A stretch of 32,670 nt of DNA from a bacterium (GTDB lineage: Bacteria > Verrucomicrobiota > Verrucomicrobiia > Limisphaerales > UBA11358): assembly GCA_021817945.1 (NCBI GenBank), contig JAKAFL010000039.1, forward strand, positions 1 to 32,670. The letters run 5' to 3'. Below the pieces are notes generated by a model. That model was not told where the DNA came from. It ran no database searches and saw nothing but the letters and a program-made list of their open reading frames with translations. A program made the position numbers and the translations under genes. Of this stretch, positions 7,774-32,662 are shown piece after piece. Positions within the stretch are counted from its first letter, which is position 1. Every line of letters begins with the position of its first letter.

Positions 7774-8631
7774 TCAATGCACCTTGAAGTGAATAAGCAG
7801 GATACCAGCAGCAGCAAAAAGGCAGTAAAAGCCAAAAAATTTCCAGCGTCCGGCCTCAAGCCAGCGTGAGAGCCATTTCAAGGCAAGAAGCCCCGCCAGG
7901 AAGCTGAGCACCATGCCAGTCAGGCAGGCCACGATGAGGTGGGAAAAGGAGGAATGATCCCCCATGTTGTGGTATTTCAAGAGGCGGTGCGCCTCGTGCC
8001 CAATAACCAGCGGAGTAAGGACCACCGCGAGGGCAAAGCTGAATTCCTCCAGCTTTTGTTTGGGCAGACCCAGCAATAAACCGGCAGAGATGGTGGCGCC
8101 GGATCTTGAAAACCCGCGAAAAGGCAGGCAAAAACCCTGGACAATGCCGATCCACAAGGAGTGGCAAGGCTGGAGGTCGGGGTTGCGCGGCGCCTTTGAT
8201 TCGCGAATGCCAGCTATGAGGATCAGGATTCCTGAGGCCACCAAGGCACCGGCGATGAGCGGTAAATTATTGAAAAGGTCCTCCACCTCCGCATACGGGT
8301 TGCCGCGCCTGAGCACCTTTTCCAAAACATGCTTGAGGCCCAGCCCCACCACCCCGGTGCATGCGGTTGCCAGCAGGATTTGCATGGCAAACCATTGAAA
8401 CTGGGCCTTGGAGGCAAAACAATGCCGCCGCCAATCAGACCAGAAATACACGATCACCGCAAACATGGTCCCGGTGTGCAGCATCAGCAAAAACATCACC
8501 ATCTCGGGGCTTGATGGATCAAGGTGCATCCATTTTTCAGCGGCGATGACGTGGGCGGAGGAGGAGACGGGCAAAAGTTCGCAGGCCCCCTGAACCACGG
8601 ACAAGACCAGGATTTGGAAAAAACTGAGCAT
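7774..8631 (-). CDS. uppP: Undecaprenyl-diphosphate phosphatase (UppP/BacA)
   Basis: A 285-residue polytopic membrane protein of normal length for UppP, which dephosphorylates undecaprenyl diphosphate to recycle the lipid carrier for peptidoglycan and surface polysaccharides. The first catalytic motif is present as QGACELLPVSSSAH (residues 14-27; E18 and the SSS-H). The second is FRGFSRSGATIS, which matches the PGxSRSG motif except that the proline is replaced, and the arginine and serines essential for phosphate binding are kept. A second QG repeat (GIVQGFCLP) marks the internal duplication of the fold. It is convergent with the LysM gene and is followed upstream on its own strand by the roadblock operon, 54 bases away. 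Confidence 0.93.
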   Translation of the reverse strand: MLSFFQILVLSVVQGACELLPVSSSAHVIAAEKWMHLDPSSPEMVMFLLMLHTGTMFAVIVYFWSDWRRHCFASKAQFQWFAMQILLATACTGVVGLGLKHVLEKVLRRGNPYAEVEDLFNNLPLIAGALVASGILILIAGIRESKAPRNPDLQPCHSLWIGIVQGFCLPFRGFSRSGATISAGLLLGLPKQKLEEFSFALAVVLTPLVIGHEAHRLLKYHNMGDHSSFSHLIVACLTGMVLSFLAGLLALKWLSRWLEAGRWKFFGFYCLFAAAGILLIHFKVH

Positions 8632-8665: not shown

Positions 8666-8687
8666 AACCCCCAACCTGAGGGGGGTT
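8666..8687 (-). terminator. Possible hairpin between the helical protein gene and uppP
   Basis: AACCCCC (8666-8672) pairs with GGGGGTT (8681-8687) over an 8-base loop. It begins at the stop codon of the minus-strand helical protein gene. On that strand it is followed only by GAGGTTTT, a weak T-tract, so termination would be partial at best. Confidence 0.3.
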
Positions 8688-9081
8688 ATTTGCGGGATGC
8701 GCCCCAGAAATGTTTGGGTTCAACCGCCCGCTGTTTGACCTTCAACTGGCCCAGGATGGCGTGCCAGCCTATGTAAATCTTGTGCCACTGGGTTTCAAGC
8801 CCTCTCAATGCCCCCTCGCTCATGTCCCCAAGGTACCGCAGGGAAGGGGCATTCCCAACCAGCGCGTGAATCTCATCCCGTGAAGGAGATGAAGTCTCCA
8901 CTGCGGAATAAATCAGCTCCAGTTCCTGAATGATGATGCTTTTGATTTCAAGAAAGTGGTTCTCATCCGTGGGCGTGAATTTCTTGGCCCGGGCCAGTGT
9001 GATAAAATGATTGAATTGCTTCCAGCACTCAATATGGGTTTCAATCTGGACGACGAGTTGGTTGATTTCCTTGGGCGTCAT
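8686..9081 (-). CDS. Helical protein of the roadblock/response-regulator operon, unknown
   Basis: The 131-residue protein is mostly alpha-helical in character and has no membrane segment or signal peptide. Its start codon overlaps the stop of the preceding gene in an ATGA (9078-9081), which indicates translational coupling. No known domain is recognised. The helical pattern with conserved-looking tryptophans (CWKQFNHF, HKIYIGWHAI) would suit a small adaptor. As the last gene of the operon with a receiver-DUF4388 protein and a roadblock-like protein, it is a candidate accessory factor of the same signalling module. Confidence 0.75.
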   Translation of the reverse strand: MTPKEINQLVVQIETHIECWKQFNHFITLARAKKFTPTDENHFLEIKSIIIQELELIYSAVETSSPSRDEIHALVGNAPSLRYLGDMSEGALRGLETQWHKIYIGWHAILGQLKVKQRAVEPKHFWGASRK

Positions 9082-9431
9082 AAGCGGGATTCATTGCGGG
9101 ATTCATTGCGCGGTTCATTCAGGTTTTGCGGGACCGCGGTTTGCGGAAAAAGAAAAATGACAGCGCCACCGCGCAACTCACGGGCGGTTATCAAAAGGCT
9201 TCCAAATTGAAGGCTCACCTGGTTCATCGGTATCTGGGCTGCCCGCGCCTCGCGAAAAAGCGTCACCACATCCTGGCCAACCTGCCGCAGGATGACCGAT
9301 GGAAAGGTGGAAGACACCGTGGAGGTGACTATGGATCCGGATTGATCCACGGTCACTGATCCCGAAGGCAGCTCCCGCACCCCGGCGGAGCTGCCAAACA
9401 GGCGGCTGAAAAATGTCTTTAAGAATCCCAT
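9078..9431 (-). CDS. Small roadblock/LC7-like protein
   Basis: After a basic N-terminal stretch (MGFLKTFFSRLFG, amphipathic), the 117-residue protein runs strand-helix-strand-strand. The order is SGSIVTSTVS, then a helix around VGQDVVTLFREARAAQ, then VSLQFGSLLITARELR and GAVIFLFP. This is the order of the second half of roadblock/LC7 domains (dimeric GTPase partner domains), and the ending with a hydrophobic final strand fits. The assignment is by pattern and not by a strong signature. The start overlaps the end of the response regulator gene by 13 bases and its stop overlaps the next start, so the three genes are tightly coupled. The tail is a short repeat (RNESRNESR). Confidence 0.65.
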   Translation of the reverse strand: MGFLKTFFSRLFGSSAGVRELPSGSVTVDQSGSIVTSTVSSTFPSVILRQVGQDVVTLFREARAAQIPMNQVSLQFGSLLITARELRGGAVIFLFPQTAVPQNLNEPRNESRNESRL

Positions 9432-10489
9432 GATGCAACCAGTTTTCGGCTTTTTTCCACCAGGTTCCCGCTCGCGTCATTCGGCCAGCCAATCAGGAAT
9501 ACCCGGTCGCTTTGTGTCATTAATAGCACCTGACGTTCCACATTCTGGCCGGAAAAATAGAGAAGAGGTCCTGCTTCCAGTTTCTCGCCCAGTCGCGCCG
9601 CAGCTTCGCTGGCGCGCAGGGTCCAATGGGTGAGCGAGGAAATGCTTTGGGTGCCCAGGCCTTCAGGCTCCATCTTTCCATCCGTAGGCACTGCCACGAT
9701 GAAATCCGCCCCTTCCCGCGTCAGTTGGGATAATTTCCAGATGGTTTTCCTGTGGCTGCTGCTCTCCATTTGCTCGGGTTCCGCTGATGGGGCGTTTTCG
9801 TCCAGCGTTTGGGCGGACTCCAATAACAAGGCATTGATGGGCTTGAAAATGGTCCGGTTTCGATCAGGCTCCGGCGGCAGGTTTTCAAACGTGCCTGTCT
9901 TCCAGGCCAGAAGCCGTTGAAAGGCAAATTCCCCTCGGGCGCCTTCCGCCTCTGCGTCTATCAAGTCACCTTCCTGAATCCATAGTTTGGCGGTCAATGG
10001 GCCATGTGTGATGCGCAAGACCGTGGAACTGCGCGAGAGACATTCCATTTGAATGATGTCCATCAGGCTTTTGCTCTGAATGCCTCGAAATCCAGCGGTT
10101 GTGTCACGACCCAGCAAGGATTCGAGACACTCATTGAAGAGTCGCGGGTTCCGCTGCATTTCCCCCTTGAGCCAGAACAAGTCCACCCCCAACGCATAGG
10201 CACGGGAACGGTATTCCTCCGCCTCCAACCCGCTGAGTGCTATCGTTCGCAGCTCCGGAAACCGTTTGCGCACAATGGCCAGCATTTGTAATCCGTCTAT
10301 CCGGGGCATTTTTAAATCGCATATCAACAGCCGGATATTGCCAGATTCAAGAATGGTCAAGGCTCGGCGCGCCGTGTTGGCCGTCAAAATCTCAGGCTTG
10401 CTGGGCAGCGTGTTCGCCAGCAAATCCCGGCACAATGACAACCAATCGTTATCGTCGTCCAATATCAATATCTTATAGCTGTGATCCAT
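9419..10489 (-). CDS. Response regulator: receiver, DUF4388 and roadblock-like C-terminus
   Basis: The 356-residue protein has a receiver domain (about 1-125) with acidic pocket D11-D13, phosphoacceptor D58 in CDLKMPRIDG, S86 and the conserved K108. All are present, so phosphorylation by a histidine kinase is likely; none is encoded nearby. Residues about 133-232 match DUF4388 (KSLMDIIQMECLSRSS ... LWIQEGDLIDAE ... FQRLLAWKTGTFE), a domain found in PatA-like and gliding-motility regulators. Residues about 250-350 again read like a roadblock fold (GADFIVAVPTDG ... LEAGPLLYFSGQ ... VFLIGWP). There is no DNA-binding domain, so the output is presumably protein contact. It is the first gene of a minus-strand operon divergent from the proline-rich/MglA/MglB operon. 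Confidence 0.88.
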   Translation of the reverse strand: MDHSYKILILDDDNDWLSLCRDLLANTLPSKPEILTANTARRALTILESGNIRLLICDLKMPRIDGLQMLAIVRKRFPELRTIALSGLEAEEYRSRAYALGVDLFWLKGEMQRNPRLFNECLESLLGRDTTAGFRGIQSKSLMDIIQMECLSRSSTVLRITHGPLTAKLWIQEGDLIDAEAEGARGEFAFQRLLAWKTGTFENLPPEPDRNRTIFKPINALLLESAQTLDENAPSAEPEQMESSSHRKTIWKLSQLTREGADFIVAVPTDGKMEPEGLGTQSISSLTHWTLRASEAAARLGEKLEAGPLLYFSGQNVERQVLLMTQSDRVFLIGWPNDASGNLVEKSRKLVASWDS

Positions 10490-10730
10490 TGGCCAGTGAT
10501 TCGGCTTAAGGTTGAATTCGTTTTAACATCCGATTTTCCAAGGACAAGTAAGCAAGCGCTGTTCCCGATTCGATGATTTTTATCATTTCCAACGAAAATA
10601 GACAAAATTGCAGCAAAAAGTCCTGTCATGAGACATTTCAATGAATTTTCACATCTCCCGGCATTGCTGGCGCGGTTATTGCTTAAATCCCATCTTGGCC
10701 GGTTCGTCGGCTCTTAATCTGGCTAAACGC
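10490..10730. promoter_or_regulatory. Divergent promoter region of the two roadblock operons
   Basis: This is a 241-base AT-richer gap between the response regulator start and the proline-rich protein start. It includes a small inverted repeat ATGAT-TTTT-ATCAT at 10573-10586. No clear sigma-70 boxes could be fixed by eye. Its position means that both arms of the module could be co-regulated. Confidence 0.35.
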
Positions 10731-12743
10731 ATGAAACTCAAATTAACCGGACTGTTCCGAAATCTGCTGGGCAGGACAGAAACCCCTGCCAGCGAGGTTC
10801 CCGCAGAACGTCCGCTGGCATCCTCAGCCCCCGCGCATCAGGAACCCTCCGCTTCATCACCCCAGACAAACCAGGTCCAGGTGCCCCCGTCATCGCAGCC
10901 AGACCTTTCCCATCCGGATGATCTTGCGATTCCTCTCTTGTCCATCACCAATGCGCTACCGATGGACCTCAAGGCCAAGCTGGCCGGAACACCTGCCCCC
11001 GGTCGGCTGGTTTACATCCCCTTGGAAACCGTCATCAATCAATTGGCTTTTGGCGCGGTAAAAATCACTTTCGGGGAATTGCGGCAGATGGCGGCAGGTT
11101 TGTTTGTCAGTGGGTTGAATGGGAATTATGACAATCGCACCGTGACCGTGCCCCTGAACGAAATTTTATCCAGAATCAACCCCGCGCTCCTTGCGCGGCG
11201 TCCAGCCGCTCCCCAGGTGGAGGTTTCCGACGAGATCGCCGGACCTTTCGCCGGCCATGGCCGGGGTGTGAGTTTCACAGAGCAGCCTTTGAAGGGTGCG
11301 CCTTTGCCTTCAGGTTCCACCTCGCGCATCACCAAGGCATCGGTATCTAATGGCGGAATCAGGGAAACCAAGCCCGCTGCCTCCCCGATCCCCCGCGAAA
11401 TCAAACCGGCTGCATCCATCAGTTTCACTCCCCCTGCATCACCTCCACCGTCGGCGGCGCCGATTGCCGCTCCACAGATTCCTCCGCGCCCATCGCGAAT
11501 GGCTCCTCCTTCCGGTTTGGGTTCAGGGCCGGATATTTCCTCCCCGGTAATGCCCGGCGCAGTGAGGCCTCTATCCACCCCGCCTCATTCAGATCGCGCC
11601 AATCATTCTGCCGTCCTGCCCCCTTTTAAATTCAAGGCCACGCCTCCCAGCCCACCCCCCGCAGGAAAGCCTGATGCCGGGGCGCCAATTAGAATGGCTT
11701 CAACCCAAGCGGATTTCCCGTCGGCGCAACATGTGGCTGCACCGGCGCCGGTGACGCCGCAGCCCCCGGGTATTTCCATATCCCTGCCCTTGACCAGTCT
11801 TTGGGAAAAATGGCCCGAGGAAATCAAGGGATCCATCGCTGCCCAAGGATATGCCCAGGCTATGGTGACTCTGCCCTTGCACCTGGTGGAACCCGGATTG
11901 AAACGAGGGCGAATCCTGCTCTCCTGGCGAGAACTTCGTTTGAATATCAACCCGGCATCTTCCCCCACCAGCATGGATGACTTGGAATTGGATTTATCCC
12001 TGGCTGTGGTGGCGCCTGCTTTTCTAGCCGCCCAGCGCAAGGCTGCTGGCCAGCAACAATCACGCGTGGCTGTGTCTGAGGAGATTCCTAACCTGTTCTT
12101 TGGCTTTCCTCAGGCGGATAATACGGACCCGGTTCCATCCGCCCCATTACCCGGGCACGCAAATGGTCCCGTCACGCCGGGGACCAGCCTCCGGGCACGC
12201 CAGCCGGACGCTTTGCCCAAGCCCCCCGTCAAACCTTCAGGGCCGGTTTTGCCTCCCACGCTTCATGCCATGCCGGGCCTGCGGCATGGAGACACCAATT
12301 TGTTTTCTCCGCCAGGCAAAGCTGGCGGGGCTTTGGAGGAATCCACCTTTTTCCGGAAACCAAACTCGCCTGCCACAGATTTCATGAGCCGCCAGATGCA
12401 GCCCAAGGAGGTTGTGGCCCGGGCCATGGCCATGCCTGGCGTGGCTGGCGCGGTGGTTGCCCTGGCGGATGGCTTGCGTGTGGAGGGCCAGGTTCCCCCG
12501 GAATTCAACGCAGACACCATCGCGGCTTTTCTGCCTCAAATTTTTGAGCGGGTCAACCAGTCCACTCGTGAGCTGCGCATGGGCGCATTGAACAATGTGA
12601 GCTTTACCGTGGGCAATGTGCCCTGGAAAATCTACCGGGTGGGATCCATTTATTTTGCGGTGTTTGGTCGTCCAGATGAACCGTTTCCCAAGGCGGAATT
12701 GGCCCACTTGGCGGCAGGTCTTAACCGCAAACCCAAGACATAA
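10731..12743 (+). CDS. Proline-rich scaffold-like protein with duplicated domain and C-terminal roadblock/LC7 domain
   Basis: The protein has about 670 residues from ATG 10731 (MKLKLTGLF). The frame is open to 10641, but the extra 30 residues look non-coding. Two related segments can be aligned by eye: one near residue 90 (GRLVYIPLETVINQLAFG, KITFGELR) and one near 370 (AMVTLPLHLVEPGLKRG, ILLSWRELR). Each is followed by a similar SDEIAGPF/SEEIPNLF phrase. Long Pro/Ala/Ser-rich, probably disordered linkers separate them. The last 120 residues form a roadblock/LC7-like domain (VVARAMAMPGVAGAVVALADGLRV ... FAVFGRP). The 3-base gap to the MglA-like GTPase gene implies joint translation and a role as GTPase partner or scaffold. 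I know no named family for the whole protein. Confidence 0.8.
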   Translation: MKLKLTGLFRNLLGRTETPASEVPAERPLASSAPAHQEPSASSPQTNQVQVPPSSQPDLSHPDDLAIPLLSITNALPMDLKAKLAGTPAPGRLVYIPLETVINQLAFGAVKITFGELRQMAAGLFVSGLNGNYDNRTVTVPLNEILSRINPALLARRPAAPQVEVSDEIAGPFAGHGRGVSFTEQPLKGAPLPSGSTSRITKASVSNGGIRETKPAASPIPREIKPAASISFTPPASPPPSAAPIAAPQIPPRPSRMAPPSGLGSGPDISSPVMPGAVRPLSTPPHSDRANHSAVLPPFKFKATPPSPPPAGKPDAGAPIRMASTQADFPSAQHVAAPAPVTPQPPGISISLPLTSLWEKWPEEIKGSIAAQGYAQAMVTLPLHLVEPGLKRGRILLSWRELRLNINPASSPTSMDDLELDLSLAVVAPAFLAAQRKAAGQQQSRVAVSEEIPNLFFGFPQADNTDPVPSAPLPGHANGPVTPGTSLRARQPDALPKPPVKPSGPVLPPTLHAMPGLRHGDTNLFSPPGKAGGALEESTFFRKPNSPATDFMSRQMQPKEVVARAMAMPGVAGAVVALADGLRVEGQVPPEFNADTIAAFLPQIFERVNQSTRELRMGALNNVSFTVGNVPWKIYRVGSIYFAVFGRPDEPFPKAELAHLAAGLNRKPKT

Positions 12744-12746
12744 CCT

Positions 12747-13367
12747 ATGGCAATCATCAATCAAGCTACAAAAGAATTGCAGGTAAAAATCGTGTACTAC
12801 GGTCCGGCTATGGGGGGTAAAACCACCAATCTGGTCCAGGTCCATGACCACGTGCAGACCAACGCAGGCAACAAAGGTAAACTGGTCTCATTGGCCACCA
12901 GCTCGGATCGAACATTGTTCTTCGATTTTTTACCCATCGAGGCCATGACCATCAAGGGGTACAAAACCAAGTTCCAACTCTACACTGTGCCCGGACAGGT
13001 GATTTACAACACCACCCGACAACTTGTCCTGCGCGGTGTGGACGGGATTGTCTTTGTGGCGGATTCCCAGTTTGAAAAAATGCCGGAAAATGTGGAAAGC
13101 TTCCAGAACCTCGTGGATAATCTGACCGCCCAGCGGCTGAGCCTGACGGAAATTCCCTATGTTCTGCAATACAACAAGCGGGATCTCCCCAACGCGGCCC
13201 CCATGGAATACATGGATTATCTCTTGAATAACCGGGATGTCCAGGTTCCCTCCTTTTCAGGAACCGCACACAAGTGCGAGGGGGTTTTTGAAAGCCTCAA
13301 CATGATCACCCGCATGTTGTTGCAAAAATTCATCAACCAATCCATGCCCCAATACGCTGGAGCCTGA
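12747..13367 (+). CDS. MglA-like small Ras-family GTPase
   Basis: The 206-residue protein is close to the bacterial Ras-like GTPase MglA, the polarity switch of Myxococcus. The P-loop is GPAMGGKTT (19-27, K25 and T26 binding nucleotide). Switch I is around TSSDRTLFFDFLP (51-63), switch II is TVPGQ (80-84) and base recognition is NKRDLP (143-148). VDGIVFVADSQ is the typical MglA strand. The protein is presumably cytosolic, cycles between GTP and GDP forms, and needs a roadblock partner for GTP hydrolysis. That partner is expected to be the gene 22 bases downstream. In other bacteria MglA proteins set cell polarity for motility, but no motility gene is present here, so the process controlled is open. 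Confidence 0.93.
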   Translation: MAIINQATKELQVKIVYYGPAMGGKTTNLVQVHDHVQTNAGNKGKLVSLATSSDRTLFFDFLPIEAMTIKGYKTKFQLYTVPGQVIYNTTRQLVLRGVDGIVFVADSQFEKMPENVESFQNLVDNLTAQRLSLTEIPYVLQYNKRDLPNAAPMEYMDYLLNNRDVQVPSFSGTAHKCEGVFESLNMITRMLLQKFINQSMPQYAGA

Positions 13368-13389
13368 AGCACCCTGGGCAACGAATCCA

Positions 13390-13899
13390 ATGGCCACCCT
13401 GCCTCAATTACTGGAAGAAGACATCCGCGCGCTGGATGCCGTGCTGCTGGAGTTTTCCCGGCAGGCTGAACTGTGTGGCGCCTTGGTGATTGATAAGGGC
13501 GGCTTTTTGATCACCCACCAGGGCAACACCGGGGAACTGGATTTAACCACGCTTGGCGCCCTTGCCTCCGGAGCCTTCATGGCCAGCCAGACCATTGCAA
13601 GCCTGGTCAATGAAAAGAATTTCAACAGCACATTCCAGCAGGGCGAGAATTCCAGCCTCTTCATCCAGGAAGTGGACCCCCAATGCCTGCTGGCTGTGAT
13701 TTTTTCATCCGCCACGGGCCTTGGCCTGGTCAAATATTATGCCGGTTCCGTGGCCGCGTCCATCGCCAGAATCCTTGGTGCCGCGCGCGACCGCAATCCA
13801 TCCGGCGGATTTGACCTTTCCGTCCTCAACATGGCCAACCCTCGGGAGTTGTTTCGAAAGAAAAGCCAGGATGCCCCAAGGCCAGCCAGTTTTGAGTGA
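13390..13899 (+). CDS. Roadblock/LC7 protein, MglB-like
   Basis: A 169-residue protein with a full roadblock domain (about 5-130). It begins with a helix (LLEEDIRALDAVLLEFSR), then strand GALVIDKGGFLITHQG, helix (LGALASGAFMASQTIASLV) and closing strands (SSLFIQEV, CLLAVIFSS). MglB homodimers act as GTPase-activating proteins for MglA, and the location directly after the MglA-like gene supports that role. It could also act as an exchange factor. The 40-residue tail after the domain (ILGAARDRNPSG ...) is polar and variable. It is the last gene of the plus-strand operon; no clear terminator follows. Confidence 0.88.
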   Translation: MATLPQLLEEDIRALDAVLLEFSRQAELCGALVIDKGGFLITHQGNTGELDLTTLGALASGAFMASQTIASLVNEKNFNSTFQQGENSSLFIQEVDPQCLLAVIFSSATGLGLVKYYAGSVAASIARILGAARDRNPSGGFDLSVLNMANPRELFRKKSQDAPRPASFE

Positions 13900-31753: not shown

Positions 31754-32662
31754 TCACTGAAACGAGTTCATCCACGCCGGCCACATGTTCAGCGACGCCA
31801 TGTAGGTGATGTTGAAACTCCGGCTCCAAGTCAGCGTCCATAATTGCTTGATGCCCACGCTGCGAACAGAGGAGTCGGCAAAACTCATGTCCACGGGCGT
31901 TCGCCCCGGATGACGCGGAATGGAGAACATGCTCATGCCACTGCCCTGCCCGCTGGAGATATACCACCCTTCATGCGGTTCAGGGGTGTCATTATACAGC
32001 GGAGGTGATCCATCAAATATGGAATCGGCAAAAACAGGAATTTCCGTCACTAACCCGCCGCTGGCCGAGAGTTTGCGCCAGTAATCGGATGCGGGTCCGG
32101 ACATATAAACACCTATTGCGGTGGGGGGCGGATTCATGGCCCAGGCGTTCATCCCATAACTGCCAAAATCCCCTGCCACGGCCCAACTGGGAACGAAATA
32201 CCCATTCGTTCCAAATATTCCCCACGAAATTTGCGAATTATCCATGGAGGAATTGAATTGCATGCTGGTCGGAAGGTCGCTTCGAAATTTTTTGGCGGCT
32301 GGACACAGCCGGATGTTGGGGTTGGAATAATAATTTCTAAGGGTGGACATCCATTCACCGGAAAGATTGTTTACCGCAGGGCTCCAGCCCGGCGGCATGC
32401 TGTCATTGTTGTCCCCGGCATACAGCGCGAAGCACACCCCCCATTGATGAAGGTTTGAGACGCATTGTGCGTGATAAGCCCTTAATTTGGCGCTGCTCAG
32501 CACCGGCAATAGCATCGCCGCCAGAATGGCTATGATGGCTATCACCACCAGCAGTTCAATGAGGGTGAAGGCTATGTTGCTCTTGCACCGGGGACGAATT
32601 CCCCGTTTGCTGGAACGACTATGAATACCGCCACCACGAAAACCATCGGAGTCGATCTGCAT
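31754..32662 (-). CDS. Type II secretion-like pseudopilin, DUF1559-like
   Basis: The 302-residue protein has a long basic leader (about 1-31) followed by [25 protein letters not shown], the class III prepilin N-terminus processed by prepilin peptidase. The residue before the phenylalanine is alanine, where glycine is usual; E at +5 is kept. The remaining region is soluble, with the PRHPG ... [13 protein letters not shown] segment that corresponds to the H-x9-DG ending of the DUF1559-like family, here without the exact DG. Such genes are multicopy in Verrucomicrobiota and Planctomycetota. GAGG precedes the ATG at 32662, supporting this start, but the gene lies 8 bases from the window edge. It heads the group with the Ig-repeat protein and galactanase. 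Confidence 0.85.

Follow-up and report, generated by a model that had tools for sequence, protein, structure and literature searches.

What would a single Ras-like GTPase do in a locus that also holds four candidate roadblock domains and a response regulator? This question is raised by six genes on a stretch of 32,670 nucleotides (contig JAKAFL010000039.1 of assembly GCA_021817945.1, hereafter the window) from a bacterium of the verrucomicrobial order Limisphaerales. The original prediction saw in them an undescribed sensor-controlled switch, perhaps outside motility. On balance, we rather believe that they encode an MglA polarity module which acts on type IV pili under the control of phosphorylation and may steer surface movement. 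Folds, motifs, linkage and co-occurrence are the basis of this reading, and all beyond these is inferred.

The six genes, their coordinates and their arrangement in two divergent operons are as first described: two three-gene sets diverge from an intergenic region of about 240 bases (10490..10730). The plus strand encodes Big (10731..12743), which is proline-rich, contains an unnamed domain twice and ends in a roadblock domain, followed by an MglA-type Ras-like GTPase (12747..13367) and an MglB-type roadblock protein (13390..13899). The minus strand encodes a receiver-DUF4388 regulator of 356 residues (9419..10489), a stand-alone roadblock-fold protein of 117 residues (9078..9431) and, as the last of the three, a conserved orphan protein of 131 residues (8686..9081) that we used as marker of the module.

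By its P-loop, arginine finger, PGQ glutamine and NKxD motif, the GTPase is an MglA, probably of the group 1 type. It matches Myxococcus xanthus MglA at E 8e-62, and no second match came up when the window's genome was searched for MglA. The MglA motifs recognized in the original prediction are indeed invariant (P-loop GKT, arginine finger R55, TVPGQ and the N, K and D of NKRD) in 38/38 orthologues. The motif counts exclude short copies and the paralogue L105, as well as L073 in the case of MglA and MglB, which leaves 38 of 41 MglA, 44 of 47 regulators and 39 of 41 MglB sequences. An intrinsic arginine finger is described for the M. xanthus-type MglA (group 1) in PMC4316618, whose relevant passages name Verrucomicrobia solely among the lineages with group 5 members. 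The product of 13390..13899 is, by its roadblock fold, MglB-like sequence and C-terminal helix, an MglB. It matches Robl_LC7 in Pfam (42.9 bits), and its profile aligns with M. xanthus MglB (PDB 6izw, E 7.9e-24) up to residue 157, thereby spanning the C-terminal helix region of that protein. Its score with the NCBIfam model GTPaseActivMglBThm is 61.6 bits, below the cut-off of 200. MglB, with its C-terminal helix, has a role as GTPase-activating protein and nucleotide exchange factor (GAP/GEF; PMC6785124).

Besides MglB, three further roadblock domains surround this one GTPase, that of Big being recognized by sequence and those of the 117-residue protein and of the regulator being predicted by structural models. 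The last ~120 residues of Big (12384..12740, plus strand), already suspected of this fold, match Robl_LC7 in 35/36 orthologues at E up to 1 (best 3e-9) and the PDB roadblock 7f8f at E 3.9e-8. In the window's Big, this C-terminal segment scores 23.5 bits with Robl_LC7 (cut-off 23); the whole protein scores 19.3, below the cut-off. The 117-residue protein has no Pfam match, and a profile search of the PDB paired it with a single entry, a roadblock protein (E 0.014). Its AlphaFold2 model (pLDDT 82.5) has roadblock topology according to Foldseek and VIA-align, limited to a b-b-a-b-b-b core; the N-terminal helix is of low confidence and the C-terminal helix is absent. Robl_LC7 matches 2/39 orthologues of the regulator C-terminus (best E 0.059; 39/41 rows aligned), and the top match of this region in a PDB sequence search is a roadblock chain. 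Since that search gave only E 0.085, the region was submitted to structure prediction, and its last 117 residues (9422..9772, minus strand) are likewise modelled with roadblock topology (AlphaFold2, Foldseek, VIA-align). The two pattern-based assignments of the original prediction thus agree with the models. Alignment of the four segments with each other by hhalign gave no match; this result was left out as evidence because MglB and the Big C-terminus, both Pfam-positive, also missed each other.

Roadblock folds serve generally as dimerisation modules. It is therefore conceivable, though in our view doubtful, that the extra domains never touch MglA and merely dimerise the regulator and Big, leaving MglB alone to regulate the GTPase; that the 117-residue model is confident in its strand-helix core only fits such a view. 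However, all parts of the module are co-conserved, and extra partners are known to change MglB activity or binding, as in the MglC-RomR-MglB (PMC12719032) and MglB/RomY (PMC9481161) precedents.

The regulator could bring phosphorylation to this set, as had been proposed. In its receiver domain (10166..10471, minus strand), D11, D58, K108 and a serine or threonine at position 86 are kept in 44/44 orthologues and D12 in 43/44. From these invariant motifs, both the GTPase and the receiver input look functional. The receiver is followed by a DUF4388 domain (9794..10069, minus strand; Pfam 52.6 bits, cut-off 25), which we take to be a PATAN(-like) domain, and by the predicted roadblock fold. This order sets the regulator apart from RomR, the receiver-domain protein of M. 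xanthus, which presumably has a proline-rich middle.

Does the six-gene set hold together in other genomes? A regulator orthologue (E 3e-50 or better, presence being the best E-value of each genome) was found in 46/59 related genomes and MglA in 41/59, each of which also has the regulator. In 41/46 genomes, the regulator and Big are encoded divergently on one contig, and gene order is identical in 31/32 complete six-gene loci, so that the two operons do stay together. In the exception, L073, Big and the later MglA share one frame and the first 35 MglA residues are missing from the match, which looks like a frame error. Three genomes (G020, G040, G046) have the operon halves on different stretches, both halves still being present, and no plus operon was found in G026 and G044. 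The regulator of G044 (L113, G044:C104; genome 57% complete) has internal stops, and this module is possibly decaying. The alignments comprised 41/44 sequences of the 117-residue protein, 41/47 regulators (without near-duplicates, fragments and one paralogue), 31/41 MglB, 36/45 Big and 28/43 of the 131-residue protein.

The profile of the 131-residue protein matches 83/167 members of the order and, among 288 genomes drawn from the phylum (267 of which go unlisted), only the window's own genome. As far as sampled, the module is confined to one verrucomicrobial order. Among the 80 of 134 relatives listed, contigs with this gene are mostly titled Verrucomicrobia subdivision 3, Verrucomicrobiia, Limisphaerales or Pedosphaera. 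Five others (L115, L162, L167, L172, L188), titled Methylacidimicrobium, Akkermansia muciniphila or Proteobacteria, are probably mislabelled metagenome bins.

What the module acts on is suggested by its company. PilT-family genes exceed the cut-off in 58/59 genomes and do not split those with the module from those without. Nevertheless, one PilT-like class is bimodal, its listed orthologues being 78-96% identical and other classes at most ~52%. Its presence (E below 1e-120) was followed in 167 members of the order, each at least 90% complete, this search covering the PilT member of a PilT-PilU-like pair. Marker and PilT class are both present in 80 genomes and both absent from 71, with 3 genomes having the marker only and 13 the PilT class only (phi 0.81, phylogeny uncorrected). 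By majority in 42 families, the corresponding counts are 28 for both, 10 for neither, 1 for the marker only and 3 for the PilT class only. Joint absence occurs in five genomes within the genus and also in families f23 and f103; counter-examples are found in families f16, f101 and f102. The regulator behaves similarly in the 59 genomes (both 40, neither 9, regulator only 6, PilT class only 4), and the six regulator-only genomes are at most 85% complete. For CheW, the comparison gene, phi is 0.31 when it is paired with the marker and 0.37 when it is paired with the PilT class; being weakly associated, it is not a fully unrelated comparison. The presence of the module therefore tracks one PilT-like motor class, better than CheW does. 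Furthermore, a PilU-like gene (our own name for a gene with a T2SSE domain and PilT/PilU-like sequence) lies directly 3' of mglB in 11/37 loci with enough downstream sequence. A switch outside motility, as originally envisaged, gains no support from either observation. In addition, a promoting effect of MglA on pili is known from M. xanthus (PMC7668184, PMC7519303), and PATAN regulators bind PilB in Synechocystis (PMC10519157).

Two side observations concern these motor genes. In two genomes (L078 and L085), the PilU-like gene downstream of mglB is in two pieces, through assembly error or decay. In the window's genome, the copy of the tracked PilT class lies at C14 beside a PilU-like gene, and behind this pair is a 159-residue protein (L196:11276-11752, G000:C14) without Pfam match that resembles a degenerate receiver by eye.

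Several points weigh against a polarity module for pili. The adjacency of the PilU-like gene and mglB is limited to the window's own genus and missing in the window itself, which is among the 37 loci. Discordant genomes number 16/167, and the co-occurrence ignores the species tree; the association of the PilT class with CheW indicates some shared lineage signal. The pili of the 13 genomes with the PilT class and no marker must be independent of the module, and the other PilT-like classes of module-free genomes imply the same for pili in general. Moreover, the equation of DUF4388 with PATAN is our assumption. Lastly, no histidine kinase was found by Pfam among 24 open reading frames (ORFs) of the window, beyond which none was searched for, so that the phosphate source of the receiver has no candidate in the window.

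A role outside pili altogether, for instance in cell-envelope growth or division, is suggested by a BacA/UppP gene (7777-8631, minus strand; Pfam 189.9 bits) directly downstream of the 131-residue protein gene. Its ORF cluster occurs in 31/53 compared sequences, on average 118 nt from the module, and the gene may belong to the minus operon. An envelope role, however, predicts neither the tracking of a PilT class nor a PilU-like gene behind mglB, and we consider it quite unlikely. The module might also act on type IV pili without a part in movement, be it in surface sensing, adhesion, DNA uptake or secretion, its MglA and roadblock set turning the motor on and off but not setting polarity. The partner in the co-occurrence is a motor gene, which is silent on what the pili do, and the window's genome has no CheW match, so that the usual directed taxis is not indicated. 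Published MglA systems nevertheless work in polarity and motility as far as the cited texts go, and other PilT-like classes of the same genomes could serve non-motile pili; we regard this alternative as unlikely, less so than an envelope role. As for the input, a chemosensory array comparable to Frz in Myxococcus would agree with the excess of CheW in marker genomes (51/83, against 26/84 others). This is very improbable, given that 32/83 marker genomes, the window's own included, have no CheW match.

If the module is a polarity module for pili, it could work as follows. A histidine kinase encoded elsewhere would phosphorylate D58 of the regulator, which would alter the pairing of its roadblock domain with MglB, the 117-residue protein or the Big C-terminus. 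The altered pairing would shift GAP/GEF activity on MglA and hence its GTP state, and MglA-GTP would determine the site of action of the pilus motors (PilB, PilT, PilU), or whether they work at all. The DUF4388 (PATAN-like) domain probably acts directly on these motors; response regulators with PATAN domains that are tied to the pilus motor provide a precedent (PMC10519157, PMC7690835). The long proline-rich linker and the doubled domain of Big make it the likely scaffold. The two copies of this domain (~115 residues, without Pfam match) occupy 10908..11276 (residues 60-182) and 11772..12116 (residues 348-462) on the plus strand and align with each other over 112 columns (hhalign probability 98.7, E 2.2e-16). 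Within the length limits of the search, homologues of the first copy are 480-720 residues long (120 of 212 listed); some Big homologues bear the JGI label "predicted regulator of Ras-like GTPase activity".

The closest known relative is the polarity module of M. xanthus (MglA, MglB, MglC, RomR, RomX, RomY). Both have a canonical MglA, an MglB with a C-terminal helix region, a second roadblock protein, a receiver-domain regulator and, probably here, a type IV pilus output. Unlike in Myxococcus, where RomR binds MglC via a C-terminal helix (PMC12719032), the regulator is built of receiver, DUF4388 and predicted roadblock. Moreover, there are four roadblock domains instead of two roadblock proteins (MglB, MglC), and one divergent locus instead of an mglA distant from the genes of its partners (PMC4316618). 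In contrast with Myxococcus and its Frz system, the window's genome has no CheW match. Cyanobacterial regulators such as PixG, PixE, LsiR and TaxP2 share the combination of receiver and PATAN-type domain and the probable link to the pilus motor (PMC10519157, PMC7690835); in the present regulator, by contrast, DUF4388 is followed by a predicted roadblock domain, and its gene lies beside mglAB. Group 3 MglA loci and the actinobacterial conservons (group 2) also combine a GTPase, linked roadblock protein(s) and a two-component part. However, according to PMC4316618, the former have one or two MglB homologues with a receiver-like/winged-helix protein and the latter a kinase and no regulator. Deviations from NKRD are described for groups 2 and 3, and group 2 is without the arginine finger (PMC4316618); the present MglA retains both NKRD and its finger, R55.

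Is the system undescribed, then? We found no published description of the linked six-gene set, judging by titles and the starts of abstracts in the open-licence literature, and this part of the claim stands. The wiring is less distinct than had been thought: Myxococcus already has an MglA under receiver control with two roadblock proteins (PMC12719032), and PATAN-domain genes were noted in 2014 to occur occasionally near some group 1 and 5 mglA genes (PMC4316618), so that part of the link has been seen before. The module is therefore a variant of the MglA polarity module, and the functional lead, the pilus motor, is new.

Detailed knowledge of how MglA controls polarity comes mostly from Myxococcus. 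A module of another phylum that is linked in one locus, differs in its receiver architecture and has more roadblock parts would reveal which components the circuit cannot do without and how phosphorylation reaches a bacterial Ras-like switch. It would also show whether bacteria, like eukaryotes, build multi-roadblock GTPase platforms. Type IV pili are moreover a first functional lead for the 117-residue protein, the 131-residue protein and the duplicated Big domain. The combination of one small GTPase and several roadblock domains recalls Ragulator/LAMTOR (PMC9481161), an analogy by fold alone. Carried further, one MglA would be controlled by four or more distinct roadblock domains that form a heteromeric platform on a Big scaffold, this platform being rewired by receiver phosphorylation and setting pilus polarity without a chemosensory array. 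We regard this Ragulator-type control as speculative and rather doubtful. If it were true, a second cassette could plug into the same GTPase with up to two more roadblock-like domains. This cassette (G000:C54, L199:5845-8604) consists of a HEAT-repeat gene, another receiver-DUF4388 gene and a small gene, and the same three kinds of gene lie directly behind mglAB in G040:C161 (L105:6718-10048). The small protein appeared roadblock-like by eye, and an attempt to confirm this failed.

The gene joins are also conserved. The regulator and 117-residue protein genes overlap by 13 nt (9419..9431, minus strand), the end ...WDS-stop of the former sharing bases with the start MGFL... of the latter, and an overlap of this length is kept in 38/44 loci. 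Because the same bases encode both reading frames, the conservation of residues at the overlapping ends is partly forced. In the window, the end of the 117-residue protein gene overlaps the start of the 131-residue protein gene by 4 nt, and such an ATGA-type overlap is found in 25/43 loci. The intergenic region has a median length of 247 nt (41 loci, gene starts picked by script); a promoter scan found no sigma-70-like site in it and a single weak terminator-like site against 0.2 expected.

The 131-residue protein appears helical from its sequence and has no Pfam, NCBIfam or PADLOC match. Weak PDB rows (E 0.1) pointing to splicing factors were taken as chance, and no convincing relative emerged. 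PADLOC run on the six proteins gave no match up to E 1 save one weak receiver match (E 0.0047), and an anti-phage defence system was accordingly rejected. Other ORFs of at least 120 residues in the window (18 scanned) encode a LysM protein, an MFS transporter, a thioredoxin-like protein, two SNF2 helicases and an aminotransferase. Near the edge of the window, a gene at 31757-32662 (minus strand) encodes a protein with a prepilin-type N-terminal methylation motif (Pfam N_methyl, 29.5 bits).

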